DNA from: Progne subis subis
Taxonomy: Eukaryota; Chordata; Aves; Passeriformes; Hirundinidae
Assembly (NCBI GenBank): GCA_022316685.1
Contig: JAKJHU010000180.1
Span: 535,494 to 599,493 of the forward strand
DNA length: 64,000 bases
Reading direction: 5' to 3'
Position 1 is the first letter of the stretch, and each line of letters starts with the position of its first letter. This document shows, one piece after another, positions 2,984-64,000 of this stretch. Both the position numbers and the translations under genes were made by a program. The notes beneath the pieces are model-generated. The model saw only the letters and a program-made list of their open reading frames with translations. It ran no database searches and was not told the origin of the DNA.

Positions 2984-3014
<31 letters not shown>

Positions 3015-4917: not shown

Positions 4918-4958
<41 letters not shown>

Positions 4959-12719: not shown

Positions 12720-12784
12720 ATTTAATCAATGTCATCAAATGTATCCCCCCAAAGAACTCAGGCTCTGGGAATTCATAGCCATGA

Positions 12785-41370: not shown

Positions 41371-42020
41371 TAAAACACAGAAAGAGAAAATCTGCCAATA
41401 TTATTTTAATGAGAATGAAATCTTTACCCTTTAGAAAAGCAGGTTCATTTAATTCTAATTGATTGTGATTCTGATGTGTCAGGTTAATGAATTTCTATAG
41501 TTTAAAATATCGTTTACCATATAAACAAACTGAAAATTTTAAAAATCAATACAAAATAGGAAAGTATAATTAATAAAATTAGCAATGTAAAATATGAAAA
41601 ATAATATCAGCCATATAAATAAATACAATCTCTATTATGACATGCTATGTGTATTATAATATCTATAATATACATAGGTACGGATGTAAAGCAGAAACGA
41701 TAATGATAAATACAAACATAAACATAATAAATACTAAAATTTAAAATATAGCCTAGCACGAAGGCTTTTTTTGGTTTGAATTTGTTGAGTGGCAAGGTTG
41801 CGGTAGTTGCGCTTGGGGGTCTTATGGGACATTTCTTCTAGAGCATTTTTGGGCAGGGATTTTTGGGCACGTTCTTTTTTGCCTCCGTTCTGTGCCGATC
41901 CCCGAGGCCGGGCTGAGCTTCGGGGCAGTGCTGCCACCGTGTGGACAGAGCGCGGTACTGCAGTCACCCCCGCACCCGTCCCCGCCGCGCGTGGGAGCCC
42001 CGGGCTGTGAGCTCGGGGCC

Positions 42021-42743
42021 GTGCTGCCGCTGGAGCTTCCAAAGAGGGCGGCAGAAAGGGCGAGAAACGGGCAAGGACCCAGGGTGCCTCTAGCCGGCTG
42101 CCTGCGATCGACCCCGACCGAGATACCGGGTGGGTGCTATTTCCCTGTGTGGGGAAATCTTTGAAGTAGCCGAGCTGAGCAGTTGCTGAGAGTTCCAAGG
42201 CCGGTGTCCCCTGGGATTCTTGAAACAATGTTTAAACAGTTATCATGGAGTTGAGGAAGCTGCTGGAGTCGGTTTGTTAGAAGGGCAGAAACAACTTTTA
42301 GCCTGCACGTGTGTTGGGATAAGCAACCCTCCTAAATGTCAGAATGAATTTGTGTGCCTTCTTTTCGCTTTTTTTCTTTCTAGATTGCAGAGCACTGGGG
42401 AGACTGTTTGGGATAAAGAGCAGAAAGCTCCACGCTCCCGAGGGAACGCTTTGGGCACCTGCCGCTTCTGAAGCGCACTGATAATCCCGGCTCCCCCAGA
42501 AACCTTCCGAAGCCGGAAGGGCCAGGCAAGACAGCTGCAGGAGGGGTGCGGGAAACATTTTCTCCTGGGTCTGGACGGCGCTGAGATGGGAATGACTTCA
42601 GAATATTCCTCATGCCTCTCCCATTGCCAGCCTGGGACTAAGTCGGCATTCTCCGAGCGGCTGCAGTTCCCTGCATGTGGAGGGAGGAAGCCTGTGCTGG
42701 AGAGCGAGAGAAAGGTCCCTGCTGGTTGCTGTGTCCTCGGCGG
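42021..42743. other. inter-repeat spacer, nothing recognised
   Basis: Begins where homology to copies B and C fades. Moderately GC-rich unique sequence. ORFs of 60-140 codons on both strands overlap and lack homology. Confidence 0.4.
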
Positions 42744-43615
42744 TGTCACAATCCGCTCGTACAAGCGGGGGTCGTGATGGTTTGTTTTCTGATCTTAGAG
42801 TGCAAAACACAACACAGAGGGGATTTCAGCATTAAAACAAATGCACCTTTTATTGATTGACCATAGCAAATGTGATAGAGGGATTAAGAGTGAGAGGGAG
42901 AGAGAGAGAGAGGAAAGGGAGGATATAGCTACCAAATGTGGAGACGGAGTCCTCGTGGTCCGGTCGATGGGTCCGCCTGTCACGTCGGGGAGAGGCTCTC
43001 TCCAAATCTCTGGTTAACTCAGGGGTTTTTATTATAGTCCTCAATCATGGGGGGAACAGGTAAATATATTGAAACTCCCGAGAGGGGAACAGGTAGTCCA
43101 CGTTCTTAGCAGTAAGCGAGAGCCATTGTCTTCTTGGTCCAACAATCACGCCTCCAGGCAAACATCTCGCTTTGGTTGAGTCAGCCCCAGCCCCCTATAT
43201 TGGGGTTGTTGGGGTGTGATGTCTCAGTCCTTGAGAGGGGCTTCATATAGGGGTCTCAATCTCAGTCCTTGGAAGGGGGTTTTGATCTCTGTCTGTCAGG
43301 GTGGTTGCGAAGCAGATGAAGGATTTTCTGTGGGGGACCACCAAAGTTACCCCAGAAAGTTCCCTTGGCCAAGAGGTGGGCAAATTCATAGGCTATTGTC
43401 GTGAAGCAGGGGCCGTGAAGCAGGTGCAATCTTCAGGTACAGAACTACCATTACACTGCTCAAAGCCCGTGTACTGTGGTGTGGTGACACAGGAAAATGC
43501 GCCTGCAGACAATTGGCAAGCATCCACCTCGAGCAGGCCAGAACTGCAGTGGGGTCCTCGGGGTCCTTATGACGATCGTGAGGCAAATGAGGGAAACTTC
43601 AGACAGGCTCTTACA
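42744..43615 (-). mobile_element. probable solo LTR, about 872 bp
   Basis: Minus strand: AATAAA followed, about 45 bp on, by TTGCACTCTAAGATCAG and a terminal GATTGTGACA, an R-U5-like layout. Proposed termini TGTCACA (42744) and CTTACA (43615) are flanked by GGCGG at 42739-42743 and 43616-43620. A (GA)n run sits at about 42891-42912. The 5 bp duplication is short and GC-rich, so the exact right end is uncertain; no empty site was available for comparison. Confidence 0.45.
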
Positions 43616-45225
43616 GGCGGGCAGAGAATTGTGACCTTGGCCGGATGGGTCAGTGAGTATCAAATCGAGCCTGCCCCCTTTTGAAGGACTTGTTTGAAGG
43701 AGTCTTCAGCAGGGAACAATTTTAGCCTTTAGATCTGCTTGGTATGCTGTAGGGTCCCTCTCACAGGCCAAGAGCCTTTCCAGAGCTGTTGTGTCATGGG
43801 TTCCTCGTGCCCAGGGTGCAGTTTTTTAGGAATTGGTTGCTCTAGTTTGGAAGCAAGGGCTCTCTTTATCTCTAGAAGCAGGGGCCCTCTCCTCTCTCTC
43901 CCTATTCTGGTCTCCCACTGGATCGAAGCGCTCTCTGGCTTCCACGCCCTCTGGCATGAGTGCTTTTCCCATGGGCTGTGAGTGGATATCTGCGTCCTCT
44001 GTGGACATAATGCAAAGTGACAGGGCCACAGCTTGTTTCATCACAGTCCTCACGACAGCTTGCAGAGGAATCTCAGCTGTGACAAGCACTTTGGAGCACT
44101 TCTTCCCCCTCTTTTCCATTGACCTTGGTGCCGGCACGTTGTTTTCCAGCACATTCTCGCTTCCTCCTCTCCTCTGACTAGAAGAAAAGCTGCTGCTCGT
44201 AGGTGCTACTGCTGAAAGGCTTCACCAGTTCAAAGATCCTTGCAGGCTCCCCCAGCAGCAGGAGGTCAATCTCGTTTAGGCTGCATGTTGGTGAGTCGCT
44301 CACCGTGTTTTTGCTGCGGCCATTGGGCGGGCAGCGGTGGCCAAGGGGGCCCTGGCGCTGTTTAAGGCCTCTCCTGGTGCGTGTTGCCGGAGGAGAAGCT
44401 GTCACTGCCAGCCCTGCCCTCGTGCCTGGGGCGAGGCTGGCCGTGGGGCCGGGCAGGCCGGCTTTGCCGCGGCCCCACCGAGCTGGCGGTGGCCGCAGCG
44501 GTGCCTCGCTCTGCGCTGCGCCGGGATGGGCCCTGGCACAGTGCCTCCCCACCCCTGGAACAAACCGCCCGTGGGTTGCTTAGATGTTCTTTGTCAATGG
44601 GACCATGAGGCCTTACCCACCTTTCTAATTGGGCCGTCGGCACGCCCATCTTCAGAGCTGTCAACCAGTGGCTCTTTTGGACATGGTGGAAGCTTCTAGC
44701 AGCTTCTCCCAGAAGCCACCTCTGTGGGCTTCCTGCTGCTACCACAAAACCAGGCTGTGCCAAATCAACACGGTGGTCTTTGGTCGGACTGCTGAGTTGC
44801 AATGATGAGCTTGTCCTTTTTTGTAACTTCTTGCTCTGAGCCTGAGTAAATGACAAAATTCCTGTCGCTGGTGTTAGTGATTTAAGCATGGCAAGAAACT
44901 CACTCCCCCTCTGCCCCCTCTGCCCCGGAGTCTGTGAGCAAGAACCTGAATGTATTGGATGATGTAACCTAGAAATGTGTGTTCTATTTCATCTGTGGAA
45001 AGCAGTTTTTTGGGACATGTTTTATCCTTCTCTTACTCTTCCAGGGGAGAGGGGGACTGATGCATTCTGATACTGGCCCAGCCATGAAAACCAGGCAGTG
45101 TTTCTAACCTCTTTCAGCACTCCTCAATCCTCCAGGGGGGCATTTTAAGGATGGCCTGGAGGTGTTGGATCTGCCCTGGACAGCAGGCAAGCATAGACTC
45201 TCTGCTGCTGCTGGGCTCTCGACCC
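43616..45225. other. inter-repeat spacer, nothing recognised
   Basis: Unique GC-moderate sequence. Overlapping ORFs on both strands near 44180-44890 (up to 175 codons, minus) are low-information P/A/G-rich translations without recognisable domains. Confidence 0.4.
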
Positions 45226-45241
45226 CACCCCCCCCACACAC

Positions 45242-45298
45242 CTAGAACCGCGGTTCTAGAGCGACCTAGAACTGCGATTCTAGAGCGACCTAGAACCT
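45242..45298. repeat. 24 bp tandem repeat with perfect palindrome
   Basis: CTAGAACCGCGGTTCTAG (45242-45259) is an 18 bp perfect palindrome followed by AGCGAC. The 24 bp unit recurs as CTAGAACTGCGATTCTAG plus AGCGAC, then a decayed third CTAGAACCTCG. Preceded by a C/CA-rich run at about 45224-45240. Confidence 0.9.
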
Positions 45299-45330
45299 CG
45301 GGCCCACCTACCTAGACCCGGTCCCCTGGT

Positions 45331-46508
45331 CTGGACCACCCAGTTGGATTTGTCCCAAACCTAGACTGGATTTGTCCTGGGAACTGGAATGGAGTCGGCA
45401 AAAGGGCAAAGAAAACTGAGACTGGATTGCTCACAGAGTCTGGATGGGCGTCACCTGGATGGAGGGAAAATCTGGACTGTCATCTGGGCAGTGAGTGCAG
45501 TCTGTGTAAAATGCAAGTGCATAACTCAGGAGTGATCCCATGCCACTGAAGATTTTCCATGAAATTTGGTGAGAATGGGCCTCAAGTCGTGATTTGCATC
45601 CACAGCTCCCCAGTGTGGACTTTTCCTGTGTCACGCTGGCCTCAGGGGCAGAGAAATGCTCTTGGAAATGCAATTCAAAGGGAGCATGTGTGGCAATGGC
45701 ATTTCAATCTGTGATTAAAATTTCTATGAAATGGCTTCAATGCTATCTGTTACAGAATAACTGAAATCCAGTGGAGACAAGCAGATCCACGTGGTATTGA
45801 TTTATTCTGGGGAGTATGTTCTACACGAATGATCCCTTTTCCTCATTTACTGAAGCTGTCTCTGTGTTATCCCTACCTCTTGCTGAACCGGCACACCCAC
45901 GTTGCCATATGTGCCACGTGTGGATTCATTTAAATCAATTTTAGGGAATTAGGAATTCTTTTTAAACACTTCTCCACCTTTGATTTACTCTGAAAATAGA
46001 CAGTGAACAGAAACCTACTGAATCTGCATGTGGTCTGTGTCTTATTTCTAACTCCTTGATGATGAAGTGATGCTTTGTGTTTTGTTTCCAGATTGAAACT
46101 GGAGTTGCTGAGCGAAGTTTTAACAGTAAGAAAGCGGCAAGTTCTCTGGGGTTTGACAGTCTGGAAGCATTGGACGGGTCCTGTTTCTAGATGGTAGCAT
46201 CAGTGTTGGAGTCCATGGGTAAGTTGCCGTTGAATTGAAATTTTTCTTGACCCTTCTGCAAATGTGACTAGAACTAGAAAAGAAAATGATGAGCACACTG
46301 AAATGCATTATCACATCGACAAGTTCAGCTGACAGTGTGAAGTGTTTTTCTGTCCACAAAGCTTTCTTGTCCCGAGTCGTGCCCAGCCTCAGGCTGTACA
46401 ACAGAATTGAGTAAGCACAAAATCCCCGACAGTCGCTCCTCCCTGCAGTCTTTGGGGCCGGGTGTCTCTGAGGGTCCCGCCCCGAGGAGGGGCAGGGCCT
46501 CATCGCAC
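45331..46508. other. spacer left of copy B, nothing recognised
   Basis: A possible acceptor TTTGTTTCCAG lies at 46082-46092, but no conserved exon follows. Sequence is unique relative to the spacer left of copy C. Confidence 0.4.
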
Positions 46509-47178
46509 GCAAAGCCAGCAGCAAACGGTCGTGGCTGGGGCCTGTCAGGGGTCAGCATTATCAGCGGGAAGTGCGGCCAGAGGGGCTCAGGCAGACCTTG
46601 GGCTGGGTGTGACCTGTAGTGGCCACCTCTACTGTGTCCTTGGTAGGGTGGGCAAAGGCAAATGTGGCAGCTGAGCACGTGCTGGAGACTGTCCCTCAGC
46701 TGTCCTGAAATCTGTCTAGAAAATGAAAGTGTGCTTGGCTTGACTTGGTTTGTAGGCCTTCAAAGTAGTCTTCAGGTATTGTTCAATAACTGTGACCTGA
46801 ATTAAGGCCAGCATTGTTTTGTGCCAGCATTTTTCCAATGGACAGTGGTTGTTTCCCTGGAGTGGTTTTCATGTCTCCATTTTTTTCTGAAGTTCCCGTT
46901 TATTTTGCTGTATTGCTGTGGATGTTCACCCGGGTACTCTGGACAGTGGTTGGGGATTTTTTCTTGATTCCACAGCTTTAATACTGTTTTTTGGGTTTTT
47001 TTCTGCCTAGCAGTAAAATTCTCTAAAGCGCTAACCTGGCTGCAGCATGGCATTTTCTCAGAGAGTCATGCTGCTTGTCCCAGGCAGCGTCGCCCTGTCC
47101 TGGGTGTCTCGGTGGAAGTTTTCACTGCATCCTGTAGCCCCAGAATCCATGGCTGTCCCTCAGGGTTGTGAAGGAGCG

Positions 47179-47814
47179 CTGTTCTGGAAAAAAAAAAGAG
47201 AGTCAGAGACTTGCTGTTTTGTATGTTTCTTTATTATCAAGCTTGGCCTTGGGGGAGTGCTTGCTTGCTACCTTGGCAACGTGGAGGAGGAGGTATGCAC
47301 AGCTTCGCTTCACAGCAAAGCTGGGGACTCCCACCTCCCTCACGGGCTTTTTCCCTTGCCGGGGAGTCCCTTTTTGCTTCGCTGATCAGGCGTCATCCAG
47401 TGATGGGGGACTCCTTCTCAGGTCACGGCGACTAAATAAAGCTGCTTCAGCGGACCCCCGTACTTCTTGCACTAGTCTAAAATGTGACTACAGTCCTGGA
47501 TTTTACTTTGGTTCTCTGCTCTTTAGAGTCTCTTGTTCTTGAGTTGTTCCCAGAATTCCAGTGTTCTTTTTATTTGCCTAGTCAGACACTATCTAGCGAA
47601 TGGGAGCAGAGATACAGGTAATAAGGTGAATTCTTAATTAACAAACAAGTAAATAAGGTGATAAATCAATATTAAAACAGGAATAAGGCAAATTCTTTAT
47701 ACAGAACTAGCATTAAAAATCTTAATGGAATTACTTAACAATTAAGTAACTAAAACATAGATTATTTGAATAGTATTCATTTATAACAGCGCTGTCTTTG
47801 GATTTTTGGCTTCA
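47179..47814 (+). mobile_element. LTR-like insertion, 636 bp
   Basis: Copy C reads GAAGGAGCGGGAAGTG at 58916-58931, whereas copy B reads GGAGCG, then 636 bp, then GAGTGGGAAG. The flanking pentamers GAGCG (47074+100, i.e. 47074 is not meant: 47174-47178) and GAGTG (47815-47819) fit a 5 bp target duplication with one later change. Within it, TGTTCTGG starts one base in and it ends GGCTTCA. AATAAA lies at about 47435, followed by a TTGCACTAG motif, so it resembles a + oriented LTR. No coding region. Confidence 0.65.
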
Positions 47815-50319
47815 GAGTGGGAAGTGCATGATGTAAACTGGGACATCTCTGCCCTATTGTAGGAAGCCTGTAAAAGCAAGGTCTTGTTCACGAGGAACCA
47901 CTTTGTCTTGAAAGTCAAGGTGTCTCGCAAGAGGTGCTGCAAAGGGTGAGATTGAACCTTCTGTCCTTCTTTGTTTCAGTCACCTCTGTGAAACCTTGAT
48001 ACGCTTCAATAGATTCTGTGGTTTCACATTTATTGGCCCTCCAGTGCAGGCCACTGGAGGCATGAACAGCTTCAAACAAGTGATTCCCTTGCTAACCCCG
48101 CCCCGGGAGCAGCTGGAGCCTCCAGGCCGGGCTGAGGGAGCAAACACTTGGGGGTGACACACCTCCACACTGAGAGTACTTGGGGACAATGTGTAGCTTT
48201 GTCCTGGATTTTTGGTTTTTTTTTTTTAGCTTCCTACAAAGTTTCAATCATGGACTTGGTAAAAATAAATGGTAAGGACTAAAAGCATGAGGGGCTGTCA
48301 AGTTATACGCACCAAAGGCAACTTTTGTTTTAATACCTGTGAGACTTCTGTCTTGCTTTTGGGAGTCTTTTTTGGCCAACTGTATTGTAGGAAGTCTTCT
48401 TTTAAGGTAAGGTGCTTCCATCATGAATTTTTTGTAGAAACACCCTGTAATGTCAGAAGGTTAAAAGCAGTAACACCAACATGGCAGCTCCTTAATTTTC
48501 AGCAGCAAAACTCATCCTAATGAAACGTCAAACTTAATTTCTCTGTGGCTAATAAGTTGATAAAGGAGATTATCAGCTTTTACTACCCTTCACTGATTGT
48601 CAAGGTCATGAAAAAATTGTTCTACTGTTGTAAACTAAATACAGAACAGTGCTCTTTGCATTGATGGAAAGGAGAACACCAGGGAAAAAGTGCTGCTTGT
48701 ATCCTTGGAGAGCAGTGGGAAGAGCTCGAGAGAAACACTGGCTGGCTGAGGGATCCTTGTGTCCCCTCTGGAATAAATCCTCAGACGTGCCGGTTTGCAG
48801 TCCAGTTTGGACACATTTTGCTGCCGCTTTGGTTCTGAAGAAGCAGAAATCCGTGGAATTTCTGGATGATTTCCGTAGCTTCTCCTATTTTGTAGGAGCT
48901 GCAGGGTGAGGTCAGTATTCTGAGGGAGCATCCGGGGTGCTTCTCCCAGCCGAGTTTCTCCTGGAGCTGGGTGCTGGGTGTAATGCCGGACGTCTAAGCC
49001 GGCTTTGGGGCATTGTGCAGTCGCAGCTCTAAGCCTGAGCCCAGGCCTGGCTGTGTGCCAGCACTAAAGCCGGCAGCTGGGTGCGCTTTTCCAGCCCTTC
49101 CATCACGCAGGCGATCCCAGATTCCCGGAGCTCCCCGGCGCACGGCCTGGACTCGCTCCCGGGGAGCTGCACTTCCATCTGCCCGAAGCGAGGGCGTCCT
49201 GCCCGGGTTTGAAACTTTATTGCTGTTGTTTTTCCTCTTCCAAGGAGCTGGCAAAAAAGGAGAGAGCCGCTAGGAAGCAAAGAAGCTGCCCGAAGGCCTT
49301 CTCCCAGCCCAGGGTTCCCACTTTTCTCTCTGACTCCTGAATAATTGCTTGAGCGTAACCAACAAGTGTCCATTTGATTTCCTGCCTTTTCCAATAAATC
49401 CTTGCCTTCAACTGGAGCGCGTTCCTGGTGTCCTCCTCCTCCTCCTGCATGGATTTGTAAATAAAGTTCCTGACTTGTGCCCCATTGAATTTTGGTCTTC
49501 CAGCGATTGTGGCTCTTTTGTTCCATTGAAACTTCCCCACGCTGCCGAGAGTTTCAGATGTCAAATCCAGGTAAGACTGGAGTTTCTTTGCATTGCTACT
49601 CCCACGAAAACACAGATAATTTTTGGAGAAGTGTAACGTGACATGTTTACTTCCCACTTCCCTTTAAAATCAGAGCAGAGGAGGCAGATTTTCAATCATC
49701 CTTCCATGAACTTCCACCAACTTCCTGACTGTTGCAAAAGTTTTCAATGGTAGAAATTCCCGAGCTTGTTTTCCAGGCAAGCTGGGATTTGGGTGTTCTT
49801 CCTTCCTTTTATTTCATGGTTTTCCTCTCTCTGATTTTAGTGAGGGGATATTTATCGCAAAGCCCGATTTTTTTATCCCAGTTGGAATTTTTGTACATCC
49901 TAGGGCACATTTGCAAGGAAATTTTCTAGAAGAGTGTCGGTAAATGGGCATTGTGGAGCACCTGTATCTGCAGAATGCTGTAAATTCCCAGGAAAACTTG
50001 CTGAATGTTTAATTGCCATCATGAATCTCTCTGTAAAGTTCAATTTACTGCATTTTTAATGACATCAATCCCATAAAAACTTAAATCCTGGCCTAATTGC
50101 TGTTCCTTGGACACATGGGGGAGGTTCTTTCCTGCCTTGGCACATTTGGATGTTCATCCGAAGTGAGTTTCCCGCTAAAATAGACTTTGTTTCCAAGGAA
50201 AACTGGGAATTGTCTCAAAACCTGTCTGGGAGGCACTGGGTTTGTTTTCCCCATGCCTGCATAGTGCAGTATACTCCTGGAGCTGTGTTAGGCAGTGGCA
50301 CGAGAGGAGAGTTGCATTT

Positions 50320-50698
50320 ATTTTTAATTTTTTTTTTTCCCAGTCTATTTTATTTTCTTGAGTTTTATATTTTCATGGAATTTTTTGTTTTGAATTTTTA
50401 GAAAGGTTTTCTATTTTATTTCTTCAATCTTTATATTTTAATTTATTTATTATTTTTACTTTTGTTGTTATTATATTTTCTTTACTTTTAAATTACTTTT
50501 AATTTTTAAAATATTAATTTGTATTTTCATTTTATTTTTATTTTGTGGTTTTTTATTTGCATTTTATATTTGTAATATATAATTTTATTTATTTTCTTTT
50601 TCTTTTATTTTTTACTTTTTTATTACTTTTATTTTATTTTATAATGTGGGTGGTGGTGGTTTTTTTTTTTGTTTTTTTTTTTCCCCCCCCCCTTACTC
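50320..50698 (+). repeat. T-rich region, copy B
   Basis: Counterpart of 40555-40925, ending in GTGGTGGTGG, poly-T and poly-C. Confidence 0.9.
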
Positions 50699-51636
50699 TT
50701 TCTTAGCCCGAGTATGTGTCAGATTGGCTGTTGGCAATGAAGAAATTGGAAAATGACATCCGTGGCCACCGAAGGTCTGGCTAGAACCGGGAGTGAGAGC
50801 AAAACCTCTGTATTTTCTGCTCCATTGAAGAACCCCAACGGAGAAAGCTGTAAACGCCACGGTGCCGTTTTTTCCTTTTTACCCCCTAAGAGGTCTCATT
50901 CTACCCATGTACAGTGTTAGCAGCAGTCACTTGATGTCGGGGTGTATTTCAGAGGTAGCAATAAAAGAAAGTAGATTTTTTTATTCTGTAAGTCTCCAAA
51001 CCTCATTGTTTAGTAAGAAAGAAATCCAAAACAAAGCAAACGAAGAAAACAAAAAGAAAACAAAACCCCCCTTGAAAAAAACCACAGAAAGAGAAAATCT
51101 GCCAATATTATTTTAATGAGAAATAAATTTTTACCATTTAGAAAAGCAGGCTAATTTAATTCTAATTAATTGTTGTTCGGATGTGTCAGGTTAATGAATT
51201 CATATAGTTTAAAATATCATTTAAAATATAAACAAACACAAATTTTTAAAATTCAATACAAAAATAGGAAAGTATAATTAATAAAAAGTGAAATATAAAA
51301 TACAAAAAATAATATCAGCAATATAAATAAATACAATCTCTATTATAACATGCTATGTGTATTATAATATATCTAATATACCTAGATATAGATATAAAAC
51401 AGAAATGGTAATGATAAATATAAGCATAAACATTAAAAAATACTAAAAATTTGATATATGGCCTACAATCAAGGCATTTTTGGTTTGAATTTGGTGAGTG
51501 GCAGGGTTCTGGGAGTTGCGCTTGGGACTCTTTTGGGGCATTTCTTTTAGAGATTTTTGGGCGGGGATTTTTGGGCCCGTTTTCTTTTGCCTGCCTTCTC
51601 TGCCTGTCCTCGAGGCTGGGCTGTGAGCTTGAGGCA

Positions 51637-51790
51637 GTGCTGCCACCCTGTGCATGCAGAGCGGTACTGCAGCATCCCCCGTGCCCGTCCCCGCCATTCG
51701 TAGGCATCCCGAGCTGGAAGTGCAGTGCAGTGCTGCCGCCCTGTGGACACAGGGCGGTACTGCAGTTTGCCCGTGCCCGACCCTGCTGTG
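51637..51790 (+). repeat. 93 bp GC-rich subrepeat, two units
   Basis: GTGCTGCC starts at 51637 and 51730 (93 bp apart) head units containing CCCTGTG..GCGGTACTGCAG and CCCGTGCCCG. The second unit contains an inverted repeat CCGCCCTGTG-GA-CACAGGGCGG (51736-51757). Copy C has three such units at 63140, 63234 and 63329. Confidence 0.85.
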
Positions 51791-52245
51791 TGTGGGAGAA
51801 ACAAAAGAAACAGTACCAAAAAACACCTTTAGAGCACAGTTGCGGGCACGCTGAAACCCAGAGCCGTGCCGGGTACTCCTGGAGGTGCGGAGGCACCCCT
51901 TATTTGCCCAGGAGCAACGGCGGGAAACCCCTTTTTTGGAGGAAAAGATTTCAGCCAATCGGCGGCCGCCGTTTTGTTCCGGGTTGAAAGGACTTCCGGC
52001 CGGCGCCATTTTGTCTCATTTGCATACCAAAAGAAACAGTCCAAAAAACACATTTAGAGCGCAGCTGCGGGCACGCTGACATCCAGGACCGTGCCGGGTA
52101 CTCCTAGAGGTGCGGGGACACCCCTTATTTGCCCCGAAAAGCGGCGAGAAAGCCCTTTTTTGAAGGAAAATATTTCAGCCAATCGGCAGCCACCGTTTTG
52201 TTCCGGGTTAACATCAGTTCCGGCCGGCGCCATTTTCTTCCGTAC

Positions 52246-52500
52246 CACGTGATGCTATGGGGGCCGCCATATTGCCGTACGGCCTATGGGGGCCGCCATA
52301 TTGGTGTACGGCACATGGGAACCGCCATTTTGTTCCGGTGTGACATCACTTCCGGTAGGCGGCCATCTTCTTCCGTACCACGTGACCATATGGGTGACGC
52401 CATATTGCCACGCGGCCCATGGGGGGCGCCATTTTGGGGTGTGTTACCTGGGGGCTGCCATTTTGTTCCGGTATGACATCACTTCCGACCGGCGCCATTT
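52246..52500 (+). promoter_or_regulatory. YY1/E-box/CRE-ETS block, first long unit
   Basis: CACGTG at 52246-52251 and 52379-52384. YY1-type GCCGCCATATTG at 52263-52274 and 52292-52303, with further CCGCCATTTTG variants. TGACATCACTTCCGG at 52341-52355 and a near copy at 52474. A roughly 29 bp sub-period (GGGGGCCGCCATATTG..TACGGC) is visible. Confidence 0.75.
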
Positions 52501-53184
52501 TGTCTCATTTGCATACGAAAAGAAACAGTCCAAAAAATGCATTTAGAGCGCAGCTGCGGCCGCGCCGTCACCCAGGACCGTGCCGGATACTCCTAGAGGT
52601 GCGGGGGCACTCCTCATTTACCCCGAAAAGCGGCGGTAAAGCCCTTTTTTGGAGGAAAAGATTTCAGCCAATCGGCGGCCGCCATTTTGTCCCGGTATGA
52701 CATCACATCCGGCCGGCGCCATTCTGGCTCATTTGCATACGAAAATAAACAGTCGTAAAAAACACATTTAGAGCGCAGATGCGGCCGCGCCGTCACCCAG
52801 GACCGTGCCGGGTACTCCTAGAGGTGCGGGGGCACCCCTCATTTGCCCGGAAAACAGCCGGAAAAGTCCTTTTTTGGAGGAAAATATTTCAGCCAATCGG
52901 CGGCCGGCGTTTTTTTCCGGGTTAAAACGACTTCCGGCCGGCGCCATTTTGGCTCATTTGCATACGAAAATAAATAGTCCAAAAAAACACATTTATAGCG
53001 CAGCTGCGGCCGCGCTGACACCCAGAGCCGTGCCGGGTACTCCTAGAGGCGCGGGGGCACCTCTCATTTGCCCAGAAAAGCGGCGGGAAAGCCCTTTTTT
53101 GGAGGAAAATATTTCAGCCAATCGGCGGCCGCCGTTTTCTTCCGGGATGACATCACTTCCGGTCGGCGCCATTTTCTTCCATAC

Positions 53185-53440
53185 CACGTGCTTATATAGG
53201 GGCCGCCATATTGCTGTACGGCCTATGGGGGCCGCCATTTTGGGGTGTGTTACCTGTTGCCGCCATTTTGTTCCGGTGTGACATCACTTCCTGCCGGCGG
53301 CCATCTTCTTCCGTACCACGTGACCGTATGGGCGCCGCCATATTGCCGCCCGGCCCATGGGGGCCGCCATTTTGGGGTGTGTTACCTGGGGGCCGCCATT
53401 TTGTCCCGGTATGACATCACTTCCGGCCGGCGCCATTTTG
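53185..53440 (+). promoter_or_regulatory. YY1/E-box/CRE-ETS block, second long unit
   Basis: Same block one 939 bp period later: CACGTG at 53185-53190 and 53317-53322; GCCGCCATATTG or GCCGCCATTTTG at about 53204, 53230, 53335, 53362 and 53391; TGACATCACTTCCGG at 53412-53426, with a variant near 53278. Confidence 0.75.
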
Positions 53441-53870
53441 TCTCATTTGCATACCAAAATAAACAGTCCAAAAAAACACATTTAGAGCGCATCTGCCGGC
53501 GCGCCGACACGCAGGGCCGTGCCGGGTACTCCTGGAGGTGCGGGGACACCCCTCATTTGCCCCAAAAAGCGGCGGGAAAGCCCTTTTCTGGAGGAAAATA
53601 TTTCAGCCAATCGGCGGCCGGCATTTTGTTCCTGGTTGACAGGACTTCCGGCCGGCGCCATTTTGGCTCATTTGCATACCAAAAGAAATAGCCCCAAAAA
53701 ACACATTTAGAGCACAGCTGCGGGCGCGCCGACACCCAGAGCCGTGCCGGGTGCTCCTAGAGGTGCGGGGGCACCCCTTATTTTCCCCAAAAAGCGGCGG
53801 GAAAGCCCTTTTTTGGAGGAAAAGATTTCAGCCAATCGGCGGCCGCCGTTTTGTTCCGGGTTCACAGGAC

Positions 53871-54030
53871 AGGGGCCCTGGGCGCACGGCCCAATCAGCA
53901 CTGCGAGCGCCTCTGCGCATCGGTCAATCACGAGCCGGGGGGGGTGGTTCTAGGGCTGGATGGGAGATGGTGTTTGTGGCCGTGCCTTTGGTGTGTGATG
54001 CTGGTCTCCTCCCCTCGGCTGTTTAACGAG
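53871..54030 (+). promoter_or_regulatory. unique promoter end of array and putative first exon
   Basis: The last unit breaks off inside GGGTTCACAGGAC and continues into non-repeated DNA with CCCAATCAGC (CCAAT) near 53890 and GGTCAATCACG near 53925. A donor, TTTAACGAG|GTAAGC, lies at 54030/54031. Inferred as core promoter and non-coding exon 1 of a + strand transcript; the start site is not determined. Confidence 0.45.
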
Positions 54031-57000
54031 GTAAGCGCGTGGTTTAACTCAGTGGTTTGGACTGTGTTGGAGTCAATATGTTTGGGCGTGTGGTGTGGTG
54101 CGGTGCAGGGCCGATGTTGGGTGGCCCCAGCTGTAGCTCTGTTAATGCTGGGGGGGCTGTTGCTCCTGGGGTAGGCCTCAGGCTTCCAAGCCCTTCCTTA
54201 ATGAGGAGTTAGGAGGCACGAGTTGCCACAGTTTGGCTTTTTCCTGGTCATTATAGGCCTGAAGCGGTGCTTTTTGTATCTTCTGCCTCAGCTTCTACCC
54301 TTGGATTGGGTTTCCTGTGGCTCTGGTAGAGTGCAGAGGGTTTTGCTCTCTGCTGGGCCAGAGAATTGTTTCGGGAAGGTCCTTTATAGACCAGAATTAT
54401 GTCGGCTCTCCAGGCTTCTGCAGTTAAAAGCCTGGCTCATATTTGCAGTGTGGAATTGGAACCTGTTGGACAAGGAATGGGAGACAGAGCCTTTCCTGCC
54501 CTAATTCCTCTAACCTGTGAATTTTTGCTGCGTCTGTGGTTCTGGCCAGGCTTCGTGTTTGGGGTGGGAGCTGTGAAGTTTTGTTCCCTTTCCAGGTGGT
54601 GTTGCTGTATGTGTGCTTAGGGCAGGGAGCATTGGGGTGTTTTTGTTCATTCGGGCTCCTCCTGAGGCATGGAAGGTACAGACTGAAAAGCTTGCAGGGA
54701 AGGGTGACTGAGCACTGTGATGTGGTACACAGCGGGGTGAATGGTAGAGTAAAGCACCCCTCTGAGCAACAGCATGTCAGGTCATAGTCTGGTTTAAGCC
54801 AGTGTTCCTGTGCTATTGTCCTTCTTGTAATTTTCCTGTTAAATTGTAGCTCTGACTTGGAATTTCTCACCAAGTAGTTGTGCAGAGTTTGTTCCTCCTG
54901 CTGCTTTACCTTCAATCCAGCATGCTTGCCTCAAGGCCCTCAGGCAGCCCCTGGTTCTGTGCTCTGTGTTTGGCTGGTCAGCGTTCTTCTGCCAGGTGGT
55001 CCCCTCCTGCAGTTCATTACCTGCCTGGGTTAAAGGTATGTGTCCTGTGTTCTATGGAGGAATTTCCTGCAGTTTTCTTTGTTTGTTTTCACAGAGCAAG
55101 ATTGGGCTTTTCTTCTTGTGCTTTGTACTTAAGGATACATCCAAAGTGCCCCAAAGTGTCCTTGGCACACTGTGGGAATTTGGTGTGTGTGTGTGCGTGG
55201 GATCTTGGGATGTAAATCGGTGGGGTTTGCGTGGGAAATGTAAAATCGGCGCTTGGATTGCTCTGGCTACGTAATGGGAAATGCGTGTTAGGAGAAGTGA
55301 CTGCGGCTAAGGACTGCTTTCTTGTAGCTCTGTGGGTTTGGCAGTGTGGTTGGAGGGTTTGTGAGAGCAGACCGGGGAATGGACAGATCAGCCCCAGGAG
55401 GCTGAGCTTTGCTTCTCTTTCCAGAAGGCTGAACCCACTAGTGAATGTAAAGGCTGAGGACAGAGTGAGTAGTAATAATTGTCTGTCTTTTTTTTTTTTT
55501 TCTTTTTTTTCTTCTTTCTTTCTCTTGAGGTCACTTGTAAGGGTAGGACAAGCACTGAGGCAGAGCTTGTTGGGACCCTGACGGAGAGGGAGAAGCAGCA
55601 AATGGAGTTGGAAAAGTATTGTCCTTTCTGTACCTGAGAAGCTGGACAAGACCATGAAATCAGACCTGTGGTGTTGTTGGGGAGTCCACGGTCCAAGGGA
55701 ACTCCTGGATTGCTCCTGAAGCCCTGGCCGGGCTTGGGGCCCGATCCACGAGGAAGCCGAGCCCGGCTGTTGCCGCACCGGACGTTGTGTCGGCCTGTCG
55801 CCGGCCCCATTTGTCCGAGCTGGGCCCTGTCCCAGCAGAGCTGTAAGTCTCTTTGCCTGCAGGTGGATGTGCCAGTGGCAAGTCTCAATTGTGGGAGAGG
55901 CTCTCCAGTGCTTGGCTGGGACGGGGGGCTCCCAGCTCGCGGGCTGTGGCTCTGGAGGATGGTGAAGTCTCAGGGTCCCTGGTGCTGTGTCTCAGTCCCT
56001 GTAGTGCTGCTCTCTTTGGCAGCAGCGGCGAGGGGCATTGCAGGGCTTTGTGGTTCGGAGTTCTTTGCTGCTTTGAGCTCTGGTCGACGAGGCTGGATTC
56101 CTGAAGCTGGTGTCTGTGTCCTTGCTGCTGCCCCTGCCCCCTGGCCAAAGAAACCTGCAAGGATTTAAGGTTTTAGGCCTGGTATTCCCTTTGGTGAGCT
56201 TCCTCCCAGCCCTGATGTACTCCCGGAAGTGCCATGGAGGCGTCCTCCTCTCAGGACCGAGGAGCTGTAGGCTGGGTGCTGCTTCTGTTCTGCCCTGGGA
56301 ACCCTTGGAGAGAAGCTTGAAGATGGGCTGGGGAGACGTGATCCGGGATATTCCCCCCTCCTGAGGTTTGGTACCAGTGCGGTAGGAAAATCCAGGTTTC
56401 CATCTAGCTCAGGATTTCTTGGTCAGGGGGCCAAAACTCTGGGAGATGCTGGAGTTTGAGGGGGTATTGTGCTAGCTCTGACGTAGAGCTGCCTCCCGTC
56501 CTAAAGTAAACAGCACTCGCTGCAACTGGCAGACTTCTGTTGGTTTCCCTCAGAGCATTTAGAGGGCTCTGTAGCTGCTGGGCCGTTAGCAACAGGTGCG
56601 AGGTCCTTGAATGTGCAGCGTAACGAATCTTATTCCACCGAGAATTGAATGAGCCTCCAGGAATTTGTGAGCTGATGAAGGGATTTCTGAGCCAAAGTTG
56701 CCGACCCGAATAAGGCTGGCAGCTCTAGCGGACACGCCGATTCCTGGTGATTGTGCCCTTCTGGCCGTGGAGCACCTTGGGTAAGTCAGAAATCCGTGGG
56801 AACTCCGTGGCCTTTGGTCACGTAAGTAAATGTACTTATGGCTATCGCACTGCAACGTCAGCTGTGCTGTTGCTGATCTAGAGGAGTCAAGTATTTCCCC
56901 ACCAAGCAGAGCCTTTCTCTCGTCTGTCTGTTTCTCAGAGTTTTCAATCGATTGTCCTAGTCCTGAAATTCAGCGCTCTTCTGAAATCCGCCGGGAAGAA

Positions 57001-58233
57001 CGTGAAATCGTGGTCGCGACGCTTAAGCGCCTGTGAGAGGCGAAGCAGAGGCTTCTTTGAAAAGCTCTGCAAAGGGAAATGTCAACTGAACTAGGGACAA
57101 GCCTCAAAAGTAGTTAAATATTTTCTTCTAATAATGACATCATGGAAACAGAGGAAGGGGATGCATTTGGTATAACTTTAGAGGTAGTCTAGGCAGTACA
57201 AACTGCACAAAATTGTATCAACAGGATGGAAGCGATAAGTTCATTTCCCTCCAATCACAGCTTTGGTTGAGGTGATCTTTCTGGGCAGTTTTTCAACTTG
57301 GATGGGAATAAAAGCTTCCAAGGTGTGCCCCTTTGTAGCTCAAGCCCCCTCGAAGACAACAAGCTGATGGTGATGTTTTCACTTTCTTCTCAGGGAAGCA
57401 GTGGCCCGAAGCTGTTCTTGTGTCTGGCAGTTGCGGGGCACGCTTGGATCTCTGCTGCAGCTGTTCTGGTGCGTATGACGGGTGGTTTTCAGGGATGCGA
57501 CGGGCAGCATCGCAGCCTGGAGCGCTTGTCTGGCGGTGCTCGGGGGTGTCACGGCCTGCCGGGTTCCTCCTCTGCCTCCGTCCCGGGGCGGAGCCGTCCT
57601 GCCCTTTCAAGCAGCCCTTCCTTTCCTGGGCGCTTGATCCGTGCTGTGCTTGAGGGAGAGATCTCGGTTGTGGCTGTGTCCCGCCTGCCTCGACTGGCAA
57701 GTGCTGCGGTTGTGGTTGGCGCGTGGCCGTGGGGATCCTGGGGACGGGTAACGATCCTTCCTTCCCCTTGCAGGGGGATCTGTGCCACGCTCAGAGGCAA
57801 ACAGAAAACAAGACCGTGGCTTTTTATCTGGGTCTAGTTTCGTGTTCGTGAGACAAATTGGTTCTCACAAAGTTTCAGGAACCAGCCACCTTTATGGGCC
57901 ATATGTTTATGTTTCTGAACGTTTATGGGTCACCCTGCCAGCTCCCGTTCACTCAGCAGGCACGGCACCGAGGGTGCTCCCCTTCTATCTCTGGCCAGTC
58001 CAGAGGCAGCTTTTCCCGCGGCTCCGTCCCAGAGCGGATTTCTGTATCGCCGCTGTTGACGTCGTAGCGCTCCGTGGTGAGGAACATCACCCGTGTCAGG
58101 CAACTCCTAGAAAAAGGCCAAAACGGAACAACCGGGCGTGTCTTTTGTACGAGCCATTGCGTTCCAGCAGGGAAAGTATCAGCAGGTGCAGGGCACAGCA
58201 GGAGGATTCCTTCCCATTTAATCAGAAGGGTCT
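54031..58233 (+). ncRNA. putative spliced non-coding transcription unit
   Basis: G- and T-rich on the + strand, like introns transcribed left to right. Acceptor-like sites include GGTCATTATAG (about 54255), TTTGCCTGCAG (55861), TTTTCTTCTCAG (about 57393) and CCCTTGCAG (57774). Open frames reach 179 codons (57298-57837) but show no recognisable domain, so a protein is not claimed. Poly-T at about 55487-55510. Exon structure cannot be resolved without RNA data. Confidence 0.3.
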
Positions 58234-58707
58234 GCAAAGCCAGCAGCAAACGGTCCTGGCTGGGGCCTGTCAGGGGTCAGCATTATCAGCAGGAAGTGCG
58301 GCCAGAGGGGCTCAGGCAGACCTTGGGCTGGGTGTGACCTGTACTGGCCACATCTCCACTGTCCTCTCTAGGGTGGGCAAAGGCAAATGTGGCAGCTGAG
58401 CACGTGCTGGAGACTCTCCCTCAGCTGTCCTAAAATCTGTCTAGAAGATGAAAGTGTGCTTGGCTTGACTTGGTTTGTAGCACTTCAAAGTAGTTTTCAA
58501 ATATTCTCCGAGAACTGTGACCTGAATTAAGGCCAGCGTTCTTTTGTGCCAGCATCGTTCTGATAGACAGTGGTTGTTCATCTGGACTGGTTTTCATGTC
58601 TCTGTTTTTTTCTGAAGTTGCCATTTACTTTGCTGAGTTGCTGTGGATGTTCACCCTTGTACTTTGGACAGCGGTTGGGGATTTTTTTCTTCATTCCACA
58701 GCTCTAA

Positions 58708-58711
58708 TGCT

Positions 58712-58742
<31 letters not shown>

Positions 58743-58745
58743 TTT
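58708..58745 (+). repeat. (TTTA)n microsatellite
   Basis: About nine TTTA units within copy C; absent at the matching place in copy B (about 46980). Confidence 0.95.
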
Positions 58746-61729
58746 TCCCTCCCTAGCAGTAAAATTCTCCAAAGCACTCACCCGGCTGCAGCATGGCATT
58801 TTCTCCGAGAGTAATGCTGCTTCTCCCAGGCAGCGCTGCCCTGTTCTGGGTGTCTCGGTGGGAAGTTTTCACTGCATCCTGTAGCCCCAGAATCCATGGC
58901 TGTCCCTCAGGGTTGTGAAGGAGCGGGAAGTGCATGATCTAAACTGTGGCATCTCAGCTATGTTTTGGGAAACCTGGAAAAGCAAGCTCTTCTTGACAAG
59001 GAACCGCTTCATCTCGAAAGTCAATGTGTCTCGCGAGAGGTGCCGCAAAGGGTGAGATTGAACCTTCTGTCCTCCTTTGTTTAAATCGCCGCTGTGAAAC
59101 CTTGATACGCTTCAATAGTTTCTGTGGTTTCACATTTACTGGCCCTCCAGCGCAGGCCGCAGACCGAACGGTTTTCAAACGAGCGATTCCCCTGCTCACC
59201 CCGCCCCGGGAGCAGCTGGAGCCTCCAGGCCGGGCTGAGCGAACAAACACTTGGGGGTGACACAGCTCCACGCGGAGGGTACCTGGGGACAATGTGTGGC
59301 TTTGTCCTGGATTTTTGGGGGGTTTTTTTAGCTTTCTATGGGGTTTCAATCATCGACTCGGTAAAAAAAAAAACCGGTAAGGACTGAAAGCATGAGGGGC
59401 TGTCAAGTTATACACACCAAAGACAACTTTTTTTTTTTTTTTAATAGCTGTGAGACTTGTATCTTGATTTTTGGGACTCTTTTTTGGCCAAGTGTATTGT
59501 AAGAAGTCTTATTTAAAGTAAGCTGCTTCAATAATGAATTTAATGGTACCAATACCCTCTAATGTCAGAAGGTCAAAAGCACTAACACCAACATGGGCAC
59601 CTTCCTTAATTTTTAGCAGCAAAACTTGATCTTAACTAAATGTAAGACTTAATTTCTCTGCTGCTAATAAGTTAATAAAGGAGTTTGTCAGCTTTTGCTG
59701 CCCTTCGCAGATACTCAAGGTAGTGAAAAAATGGCTCTACTGTTCTGAACTAACTATGGATATTACACCTCCCTCCTTCTCCCCAGCCTGGAAACAGGTG
59801 GATTGATCTTTGATCTTCTTTCTTTGCGTTTCTGTGGCTGTTTGAGCTGCGTGGAGAAGGTGTCTGTGGACATGGCAGCCGGGGAAGGGAAAGTCTGGGA
59901 AGGAGCTGCTCAGAAATCCAGAAGCAGCGGTGGATTGGGAGCTGGGGGTCCCGCCTCAGTCGCACCCTCCCGGACGCCCTGTGTCCAGGGTAATATTCCC
60001 GTTTTCCTTCCTGACCGTGGAGGCGGCGGAGAGCAGAACACTCGGCACTGAGGGAAAGGGGAACAGCAGGGAAAAAGTGCTGCTTCGTGTCCTCAGAGAG
60101 CAGTGGGAAGAGCCCGAGGGAAATACTGGCTGGCTGAGGGATCCTTGTGTCCCCTCTGGAATAAATCCTCCGACGTGCCGGTTTGCAGCCCGGTTTGGAC
60201 ACATGTTGCCTGCCGCTTTGGTTCCGAAGAAGCGGAAATCCGTGGATTTCTGACTGATTTCCCGTAGGTTCCCCTGTTTTGGAGGAGCTGCAGGGTGAGG
60301 TCAGTATTCTGGGGGAGCGTCCGGGGGGCTTCTCCCAGCCGAGTTTCTCCTGGAGCTGGGTGCTGGGTGTAATGCCGGACGTCTAAGCCGGCTTTGGGGC
60401 GTTGTGCAGTCGCAGCTCTAAGCCTGAGCCCAGGCCTGGCTGTGTGCCAGCACTAAAGCCGGCAGCTGGGTGTGCTTTTCCAGCCCTTCCATCACGCAGG
60501 CCATCCCAGCTTCCCGGAGCTCCCCGGCGCACGGCCTGGACTCACTCCCTGGGAGCTGCGCTTCCGTCTGCCCGAAGCGAGGGCGTCCTGCCCGGGTTTG
60601 AAACTTTATTGCTGTTTGTTTTTCCTCTTCCAGGGAGCTGGCAAAAAAGGAGAGAGCCACTAGGAAGCGAAGCCGCCCGAAGGCCTTATCCCAGCCCAGG
60701 ATTTCCACTTTTCTCTCGGACTCCTGGATAATTGCTTGAGCATAACCAGGGAGCGTCCGTTTCATTTCCTGCCTTTTCCAATAAACCCTTGCCTTCAGCT
60801 GGAGCGCGTTCTGGTGTCCTCCTCTCCTCCTCCTCCTCCTCCTCCTCCTGCATGGATTTGTAAGATAAAGTTCCTGACTATTACCCGATTGAATTTTGTT
60901 CTTCCAGCGATTGTGGCTCTCTCGTTCCATTGAAACTTCCCCGCTCTGCCGAGAGTTTGAGATGTCAAATCCAGGTAAGACTGGAGTTTTCTTTGGATTG
61001 CTACTCCCACGAAACACAGATAATTCTTGGAGAAGTGTAACGGGACATGTTTACTTCCCACTTCCCTTTAAAATCAGAGCAGAGGAGGCAGATTTTTCCA
61101 TCATCCTTCCATGAACTTCCACCAACTTCCTGACTGTTGCAAAAGTTTTCAATGGTAGAAATTCCCGAGCTTGTTTTTGCAGGCGAGCTGGGATTGGGTG
61201 TTCTGCCTTCCTTTTATTTCATGGTTTTCCTCTCTCTGATTGTAGTGAGGGGATATTTATCGCAAATACCGATTTTCCATCCCAATTGGAATTTTTGTAC
61301 ATCCTAGGGCACATTTGCAGGGATGTTTTCCAGAAGAGTGTTGGTAAATGGGCATTGTGGAGCACCATATCTGCAGAACGCTGTAAATTCCCAGGAAAAC
61401 TTGCCGGGTGTTTAATTGCCGTCATGAATCTCTCTGGAAAGTTCAATTTACTGTCATTTTTGATGACATGAATCCCATTACAACCTCAATCCTAGCCTAA
61501 CTGATGTTCCCTGGACGCAATGGGGAGGTTCTTTCCTGCCTTGGCACATTTGGATGTTCATCCAAAGTGAGTTTCCCGCTAGAATAGAATTCGTTTCCAA
61601 GCAAAACTGGGAATTGTCTCTAAACCTTCTTTTCTGGGAGGCACCGGGTTTTGTTTTCCCCATCCCTGCGTAGTGCAGGATTCCTCCCGGAGCTGTGTTA
61701 GGCCGTGGCGGAAGAGGAGAGCTGCATTT

Positions 61730-62105
61730 ATTTTTGTATTACTATTTATTTTATTTTTTACTTTTTTACTTTTGTAATTTTATTTTCTTGAGTTTTATTT
61801 TTTCGTTCAGTTTTTTGTTTTGAACTTTTAAAAAGGTTTTATATTTAATTTCTTCTATCTTTATAATTGTATTATTTTTGCTTTTGTTGTTATTATATTT
61901 TCTTCTTTAAATTATTTTTCATTTTAAAAAATATTTTATTTCATGTCATTTTTATTTTTTTTTGGTGGTTTTTTTTTATTTTTATTTGATATATTTTTAT
62001 ATAGAATTTATTTTATTTTTCTTTTATGTTTTACTTTTTAATTACTTTTGTTTTAATTTTTTTTTTTCCCCCCATATTTTGTTTTTTCTTTTTTTTTTTC
62101 CCTTA
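61730..62105 (+). repeat. T-rich region, copy C
   Basis: Counterpart of 40555-40925 and 50320-50698; ends in poly-T and CCCC before CTTACCCTTTCTCACC. Confidence 0.9.
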
Positions 62106-62439
62106 CCCTTTCTCACCCAAGTATGTGGCAGATTGTCTGCTGGCAACAAAGAAGTTGAAAAATGACATCCGTGGCCACCCAATGATGGCCTGTATATCAC
62201 GAGAGAGAAACAAAACCTCTGTACTTTCTACTCCACTTGAAGAACCGAAGGGAGAAAGCTGTAAACACCACAGTGCCTTTTTTTTCCTTTTTATCCCCTA
62301 GCAGGTCTCATTCTACCCACGAACAGTGTTAGCAGCAGTCACTTGATGTCAGGGTGTATTTCAGAGGCAGCAATAAAAGAAAGTAGATTTTTTTTTCTTC
62401 TGGAAGTCTCCAACCCTCATTGTTTAGTAAGAAAGAAAT

Positions 62440-62595
62440 CCAAAAACAAAGCAAACAAACAACAACAAACAAACACAACCATTAAAAAACCCAAACAAAA
62501 ATACAAGCCAAAAAAACCCCAAAAAACCCCCCCAAACCACCAAAAAACCCCTCCACACAAACACACCCACCCCCCTCGAAAAAAAAAACCACAGA
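62440..62595 (+). repeat. A/C-rich simple tract, copy C
   Basis: AAACAAACAACAAAC, then AAAACCCC and CCACACAAACACACCC. Expanded relative to copy B. Confidence 0.9.
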
Positions 62596-63139
62596 GGAGA
62601 AAATCTTCCAATATTATTTTAATGAGAATGAAATCTTTACCCTTTAGAAAAGCAGGCTCCTTTAATTCGAATTGATTGTAGTTCTGATGTGTCAGGTTAA
62701 TGAATTTGTATAGTTTTAAAACATGGTTTAACATATAAACAACTGAAAAACTTAAAAAATCAATACAAAAACCAGGAAAGTATAATGAATAAAAATAGCA
62801 ATGTAAAATATGAAAAATATATATCAGCCATATAAATAAATACAATCTCTATTATGACATGCTCTGTGTATTATGATATCTATAATATACATAGGTACAG
62901 CTATAAAACAGAAATGGTAATGATCAATATAAACATGATAAATACTAAAATTTAAAATATAGCCTAGCACGAAGGCTTTTTTGGTTTGAATTTGGCGAGT
63001 GGCAGGGTTTTGGTAGTTGCGCTTGGGGCTCCTTTGGGGCAATTTCTTTTAGGGGATTTTTGGGCGGGGATTTTGGGCCCGTTCTCTTTTGCCCCTGTCT
63101 CTCCGCCGGTCCCCGAGTCCGGGCTGTGAGCTCGGGGCG

Positions 63140-63420
63140 GTGCTGCCACCCTGTGGATGCAGAGCGGTACTTGCAGCTCCCCCCGCACCCGTCCCCCCCA
63201 TTCGTAGGCGTCCCGGGCTGGAAGTACGGTGCAGTGCTGCCAACCCTGTGGGATGCAGTGCGGTACTGCAGCATCCCCCGTGCCCGTCCCCGCCATTCGT
63301 AGGCATCCCGAGCTGGAAGTGCAGTGCGGTGCTGCCGCCCTGTGACAGAGGGGCGGTACTGCAGTTTGCCCGTGGCCCGACCCTGCCGTGGTGTGGGAGA
63401 AACAAAAGAAAACAGTCCAA
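63140..63420 (+). repeat. 94 bp GC-rich subrepeat, three units
   Basis: GTGCTGCC at 63140, 63234 and 63329, each followed by a CCCTGTG..GCGGTACTGCAG-type block and CCCGTCCCC. One unit more than copy B. Confidence 0.85.
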
Positions 63421-64000
63421 AAAAAACACCTTTAGAGCGAACCTTGCGGGCCACGCTGAAACCCAGAGCCGGTGCCGGGTACTTCTGGAGGTGCGGGGGA
63501 GCACCCTCTATTTGCCCGAAAAGCGGCGGGAAAGCCTTTTTTTCGGACGAAAAATATTTCAGCCAATCGGCGGCCCGCCGTTTTGTTCCCGGGTTGCCAT
63601 GGCTACCGCGGGCCGGGCGCCATTTTGGCTCATTTGCATACGAAAAATAAATCGTCCCAAAAAAACACATTTAGAGCGCACCTGCGGGCGCCCTGACACC
63701 CCGGGCCGTGCCGGGTGCTCCTAGAGGTGCGGGGGCACCCCTTATTTGCCCCGAAAAGCGGCGGGAAAGCCCTTTTTCGGACGAAAATATTTCAGCCAAT
63801 CGCGGGCCGCCGTTTTGTTCCGGGGTTTGCCATGGCTACCGGCCGGCGCCATTTTGGCTCATTTGCATACGAAAATAAATCGTCCCAAAAAACACATTTA
63901 GAGCGCACCTGCGGGCGCCGACACCCCGGGCCGTGCCGGGTACTCCTAGAGGTGCGGGGGCACCCCTTATTTGCCCCGAAAAGCGGCGGGAAAGCCCTTT
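63420..64000 (+). repeat. promoter-like tandem array, copy C (partial)
   Basis: CCAAT boxes at 63563 and 63796 (233 bp apart) and octamers at 63632 and 63861. The third unit is cut by the window end. In both full units the CRE/ETS position is occupied by GTTGCCATGGCTACC instead, an RFX X-box-like sequence, followed by the usual GGCGCCATTTTGG. Confidence 0.9.

Follow-up and report, generated by a model that had tools for sequence, protein, structure and literature searches.

Gene content and repeat layout of the window

The sequence examined in the present study is a 64,000-bp window of contig C891 in the Progne subis subis assembly. Its left part carries GABARAPL2 on the minus strand, in four pieces between 17,142 and 13,040 that Pfam assigns to ATG8, with 57, 31 and 20 residues identical to the human peptide. 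TMEM231 (plus strand) and a CHST-type sulfotransferase recognised by Pfam at 31,934-33,223 lie ahead of the first of two promoter-module arrays, and this gene order presumably corresponds to the one around CHST5/6 on human 16q and on chicken chromosome 11. The centromere of chicken chromosome 11 is predicted at 2.80-3.30 Mb of galGal5 (PMC7317479).

Beyond 37 kb, the rest of the window consists of three copies of a duplicated block (blk, 82-95% alike), two spacers (sp1 and sp2, between which no significant match was found) and two arrays (U and V), all on the plus strand. Ahead of them lies a 'pre' element (36,568-37,098, plus strand), a 71-78% relative of both a piece of the segment X described below and a ~1.7-kb tandem repeat on contig C2581. 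Copy 1 of blk (37,126-42,030) is truncated and without an array, forming the macrosatellite edge, and is followed by sp1 (42,031-46,508), an alternative spacer also present ahead of blk on contigs C1065 and C631. Copy 2 (46,509-51,802) is the duplicated block to the left of array U (51,803-53,870), sp2 (53,871-58,233) starts at the right edge of that array, and copy 3 (58,234-63,401) stands to the left of array V (63,402-64,000), which is cut by the contig end: the last base of the window, base 599,493 of C891, lies inside it. Copy 1 also contains a CCTC/CCCT-type simple repeat of ~490 bp (38,790-39,281), which copy 3 and the corresponding block on contig C60 match with a short TCC run only, and a short 24-bp tandem repeat with the near-palindromic core AGAACCGCGGTTCT was seen at 45,240-45,301. 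Searches of the window yielded no Rfam match at the gathering threshold, no tRNA, and no match to the 25-base pattern of a viral-contig scan.

Anatomy of the arrays

Array U consists of seven modules of ~225 bp, two of which are lengthened by an insert of ~264 bp composed of two ~132-bp pieces that carry YY1, CRE, ETS and E-box sites; the inserts occupy 52,190-52,453 in module 2 (2 x 132 bp) and 53,129-53,390 in module 5 (130 + 132 bp). The factor names used throughout for the motifs (NF-Y, ETS, YY1, octamer, E2F, CRE, E-box, RFX) are those to which we take the sites to belong. The NF-Y anchor CAGCCAATCG occurs at 51,952, 52,176, 52,665, 52,890, 53,115, 53,604 and 53,829, giving distances of 224, 489, 225, 225, 489 and 225 bp, in agreement with the original prediction of one short module followed by two runs of long, short, short. 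The predicted period of 939 bp is likewise exact at the three CCAAT pairs on which it was based, with the fourth available pair (51,955/52,893) at 938 bp. Because the modules differ by 10-16%, an assembly artefact is an unlikely source of array U.

Plus-strand motif counts were compared with 200 dinucleotide shuffles of array U, and the motif classes named beforehand are far above this background. AGCCAATC occurs 7 times (shuffle mean 0.05), TTCCGG 15 times (1.33), ATTTGCAT 6 times (0.10), TGACATCA 6 times (0.01), CACGTG 4 times (0.26), GCCGCCAT[ACT]TTG 9 times (0.00) and the E2F-type GGCGGGAAA 4 times (0.04), although these counts are not independent, since the repeats share ancestry. The description of the modules as complete and fixed in order was too strict: within 90 bp to the right of the CCAAT a CRE is found in two of seven modules and an octamer in four of seven, and all four E-boxes and seven of the nine long YY1 sites of the array sit within the insert stretches. 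In the two readable slots of array V, TTGCCATGG occupies the CRE or ETS place. The sequence at this slot, at 63,594 and 63,827, is TTGCCATGGCTAC, and we take TTGCCATGG/TTGCCATGGCTAC to resemble an RFX X-box.

The spacing of array U had been read as a true higher-order repeat, in which copies in register should be the more alike. Module identity is 0.872 in register (4 pairs) and 0.877 out of register (17 pairs), and array U is therefore not a homogenised higher-order repeat. One half of the insert keeps a register signal (b1/b2, 0.931), while the other has none (a1/a2, 0.838). The run of short, short, long spacings nonetheless recurs in 9 of the 14 contigs examined, where the 112 spacings between 126 modules comprise 73 short (~225 bp), 5 middle (~357 bp), 22 long (~490 bp) and 12 other distances.

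A dispersed family with an 18.5-kb tandem unit

A 300-bp unit searched against its own assembly gave at least 423 matches, a lower bound with 40 of 333 candidates scored, and the best 91 of the matches listed after the self-hit are spread over 28 contigs. With a second array beginning at 63,402 and a family that is genome-wide, the sequence is not confined to one place, and its reading as a special higher-order device of a single locus is not supported. Macrosatellites, also put forward at the outset, are the right frame for the array. For comparison, flanking sequence was read from nine other contigs that carry arrays, along with 20 kb of C60 that take in a full unit and the beginning of the following one. 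The C60 unit measures 18,511 bp, its shifted copy is 100% identical over the 1,489-bp overlap, and five array matches on this contig recur at the same distance. It is ordered as an array (172-3,257, ~3.1 kb), X (3,258-9,118, 5.9 kb), sp2 (9,131-13,517, 4.4 kb) and blk (13,518-18,681, 5.2 kb), after which the next array follows. A head-to-tail unit of kilobase size and a high identity between units, as in macrosatellites and tandem amplicons, are thus both present, X being 95.6-99.5% identical between contigs and blk copy 3 of the window 95% identical to its counterpart on C60. The end of X (L027:4600-6040) consists of degenerate tandem repeats of ~191 bp, followed by sp2. The left flank of the array on C2581 (L018), which is also present on C1502 and C2774, holds ahead of the array the ~1.7-kb tandem repeat mentioned above, with copies 1,705 bp apart and the relative of the 'pre' element within it.

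Modules with the CAGCCAAT anchor and the module signature number 126 on 14 contigs. Among them CAGCCAATC occurs in 114, TTCCGG in 112, GGCGGGAAA in 98 and GCGCCATTTT in 97, and the motifs of the variable slots are rarer (TGACATCA in 38, TTGCCATGG in 28). Copying between loci has evidently been frequent, because the nearest relative of 84 of the 126 modules is on another contig. Mean module identity within the window is 0.852, a value undercut only by C1101 (0.836), with other contigs reaching up to 0.921, and for no module of array U does the closest relative exceed 0.962; both observations are as expected of the edge of a satellite. One of the two modules of array V that were compared is 99% identical to a module on C1065. 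The window represents the frayed margin of a macrosatellite that is dispersed through the genome.

Neighbouring genes were sought in stretches away from the arrays on C1635, C2046, C1101 and C691, none of which matches the repeat segments. Glycogenin-1 was found on C1635, and C2046 carries IKK-beta together with a tPA-like EGF exon (best PDB match t-plasminogen activator). The neighbourhoods of C891, C1635 and C2046 presumably map to separate chromosomes in both human and chicken. The array points to the nearer contig end in seven of the eight fetched contigs longer than 100 kb, the exception being C2774, which fits a placement beside centromeres or telomeres without proving it. No telomere repeats, sought as three consecutive TTAGGG, occur in the nine fetched flanks. 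No printed account of the family was found; subscription papers and repeat libraries lay outside the search, and a name may already exist.

CpG retention in the arrays

The CpG observed/expected ratio is 1.01 in array U, 0.68 in 53,870-54,000 and ~0.25 in 54,000-55,000 (0.26 by 54,100), and an unstranded CpG island called in 500-bp windows (GC >=0.55, observed/expected >=0.65) spans 51,551-54,200. The view of the array as a CpG-rich, multiplied promoter-like element is supported. CpGs decay slowly within it: between copies 2 and 3, kept and decayed CpGs number 25:4 in the array as against 56:70 in four flanking blocks (Fisher p = 5e-5), and array U compared with itself at the 939-bp offset gives 72:17 (p = 6e-8), counts that leave out 12, 30 and 18 other CpG changes in the array, the flanks and the 939-bp self-comparison, respectively. 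The excess of CpG over other C/G transitions takes values of 0.36 and 0.74 within the array, 1.03-3.02 across the four flank blocks compared between copies 2 and 3, and 1.11-6.58 in four flank blocks against copy 1, with two of the eight flank blocks (1.03 and 1.11) lacking a CpG transition excess.

Across the family, the ratio of CpG to non-CpG transitions is 1.47 in the 126 modules compared with 6.25 over the initial 4.7 kb of X (seven copies), the base rates of the two differing because X is younger. As in a germline-unmethylated CpG island, CpGs of the modules are not lost much faster than other C/G (ratio 1.47), and their protection appears strong, if incomplete. The simplest reading of this slow decay suggests low germline methylation of the arrays.

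Strand skew and direction

Array U has a GC skew of -0.02 and an excess of T over A of +0.02. From its right edge onwards, GC skew per kb is +0.22, +0.17, +0.12, +0.09 and +0.01 and T over A is +0.29, +0.24, +0.18, +0.13 and +0.18, the skew starting with sp2 and decaying rightwards. Germline transcription is known to leave the coding strand enriched in G and T. For T over A the neighbouring genes behave as expected (+0.03 to +0.13 in plus-strand TMEM231, -0.12 to 0.00 in minus-strand GABARAPL2), but the control fails for GC skew, which is mostly positive in GABARAPL2 (+0.14 to -0.06) and merely -0.04 to +0.07 in TMEM231. To the left of the array, blk too has T over A in five of six kb. In the C60 unit, GC skew lies between -0.07 and 0 within the array and climbs to +0.68 at 1.5-2 kb downstream, where C makes up 5% of the strand; this extreme skew of X could be a low-complexity accident. 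Some 1.6 kb of X (L027:1350-2950; 4,401-6,000 of the C60 unit) has a plus-strand C content of 5-8% and a T content of 41-51%. In one 400-bp interval of this unit (5,201-5,600), CpG accounts for 57% of the remaining C, which gives a bisulfite-like appearance such as deamination of an exposed strand would produce.

Junctions support the rightward direction, in that right neighbours are uniform and left neighbours varied: two kinds of neighbour (X in seven, sp2 in four) occur among the 11 arrays whose right side is readable and five kinds among the 11 whose left side is, C912 lacking a left flank and array V a right one. The orientation of the YY1 and ETS sites counts against it, as in many gene promoters the same arrangement points leftwards. 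Near array U, sp2 holds an additional CCAAT as well as GAG|GTAAGC at 54,031, which resembles a splice donor; this one AG|GTRAG donor, 160 bp to the right of the array, is about what chance would give, and the first 1.5 kb of X has none in all seven copies. Taken together, the same-direction stack of motifs, the slow CpG decay and the skew starting at the array edge suggest a germline-active promoter directed rightwards.

Coding content and constraint on motifs

Thirty-four ORFs were scanned with Pfam, 24 from the repeat region of the window and 10 from X and sp2, and none had a family above the cut-off or corresponded to the ORF1 or ORF2 with reverse transcriptase of a LINE with an L1-type monomeric promoter. 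A non-coding product is therefore likely, and the predicted transcript would be a long non-coding RNA. A weak match of X to the QSOX pseudo-Erv domain (E 0.0059, below the cut-off) has no PDB partner. Exon-like pieces of X are about as variable as the sequence around them and undergo amino-acid changes, for which reason X is treated as non-coding. Codon-position bias between the blk copies revealed no convincing frame, and a scan of 37-64 kb for [YF][AVMIL]DD returned two FLDD strings, neither of which by eye belongs to a reverse transcriptase.

Across the 10 modules of the window, conservation is higher in the motif columns (0.955) than in the others (0.912), with none of 223 rotations as good. 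This advantage is gone in the 126 modules, which were themselves chosen by their CCAAT and in which 54 of 210 rotations do as well. Selection on the motif sites is thus unsupported, and the case for activity rests on CpG retention and strand skew.

Interpretation and alternative explanations

We consider it moderately probable, from sequence evidence, that the array is the promoter array of a dispersed tandem macrosatellite which is unmethylated in the germ line and drives a rightward, probably non-coding RNA. Each ~225-bp module would offer NF-Y (CCAAT), ETS and YY1 sites in the same direction, with an octamer in the short modules, an E2F-type site in most and a CRE, E-box or RFX-like site in the variable slots. 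Ubiquitous factors bound there would prevent germline methylation of the array, and RNA polymerase II would start within it and proceed rightwards into X or sp2, giving a long, probably non-coding RNA. The modules would multiply through unequal exchange, and whole units would carry them between loci and chromosomes.

A satellite that is inert today, derived from a captured CpG-island promoter whose motifs and CpGs persist through recent copying and gene conversion, would account for motif columns that are no better conserved than the rest in the 126 modules, for the frequent copying between loci and for the mixed skew controls. We nevertheless regard it as unlikely, as copying alone leaves unexplained both the contrast between weak CpG decay in the array and strong decay in X and most of blk, and a strand skew that starts at the array edge. 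That the modules originated as a retroelement's monomeric 5' UTR or LTR enhancer, in the style of mouse L1 Tf or ERV9/LTR12, and were later trapped in a satellite seems improbable. In mouse L1 the monomers form tandem promoter units whose YY1 site resembles GCCGCCATTTTG (PMC11602158), LTR12 bears 5-17 tandem NF-Y repeats (PMC11853044), and the downstream side of the arrays is uniform where the upstream side is varied; yet the scanned ORFs and FLDD strings gave no sign of a retroelement protein, and the right neighbour belongs to an 18.5-kb tandem unit and not to an inserted element.

An architectural role, with YY1 arrays anchoring chromatin loops in the manner of DXZ4, we hold to be very improbable. 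It would suit the many YY1-type sites in one orientation, the macrosatellite setting and the paired CTCF-YY1 sites of the DXZ4 internal promoter element (PMC6985041). CTCF-like sites with at most one mismatch, however, number 2 in the window against 2.27 expected, with none in the array, and the best match to a CTCF consensus has 2-4 mismatches in the 126 modules. The original prediction had cited DXZ4 as a precedent; the macrosatellite frame holds, and a DXZ4-like partnership with CTCF is rejected. That the array acts locally, as the promoter device of a gene next to CHST, can be given hardly any credence: it adjoins ordinary genes, but its dispersal to at least 423 genomic matches contradicts the idea, the ORFs scanned to its right have no recognised domain, and a TMEM170A peptide found no convincing match in the window.

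Satellites are usually regarded as silent. Returning to the promoter array of a dispersed macrosatellite, a bolder form of this reading, which is speculative and rather doubtful, is that the array is self-amplifying and drives the macrosatellite. Ubiquitous activators would then create a hypomethylated, transcribed germline island in repeat-rich regions, and R-loop-prone DNA to its right, with C down to 5% of one strand, would promote recombination and spread. The macrosatellite would in that case be a selfish one, driven by its promoter, or would serve as a source of heterochromatin RNA or germline piRNA. A satellite present at several loci, with a ready-made promoter in its units that is spared in the germ line, would offer a direct test of whether promoter activity drives repeat spread. 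The arrays may also explain assembly breaks, the contig of the window itself stopping inside one.

Comparison with known systems

YY1 sites cluster in the control regions of Peg3 and Xist, and the mouse L1 Tf monomer is ~200 bp long. The long YY1 motif GCCGCCATTTTG is shared with the Peg3 and Xist regions (quoted in PMC11602158), but these are single loci, unlike the present dispersed family. ERV9 LTR12 likewise has tandem NF-Y (CCAAT) repeats in its U3 enhancer; its repeat is ~41 bp long with GATA and MZF1 sites (PMC11853044), whereas the period here is 225 or ~132 bp, the ~225-bp module bearing YY1, ETS and octamer sites. DXZ4, FIRRE and ICCE are similarly tandem, CpG-rich and sometimes unmethylated, with YY1 sites and, in DXZ4, an internal promoter (PMC6985041), although each occupies one X-linked locus while the present family is dispersed over several contigs without CTCF enrichment.

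Chicken dot chromosomes carry testis-expressed amplicons in their pericentromeric heterochromatin, described (PMC9974502) as protein-coding genes or lncRNAs in multiple copies that lie in repeat-rich parts of chromosomes, often close to heterochromatin boundaries. In contrast, no gene was recognised in the present unit, which is known from its sequence, and its chromosomal position would follow from the contig ends. The 5' UTR of mouse LINE-1 Tf is also built of head-to-tail promoter monomers, with a YY1 motif like the long GCCGCCATTTTG type (PMC11602158); the modules described here differ in lying within an 18.5-kb tandem unit and in having NF-Y, ETS, octamer and E2F-type sites. By analogy, the family would work like mouse L1 Tf monomers; its arrangement is that of tandem amplicons or macrosatellites.
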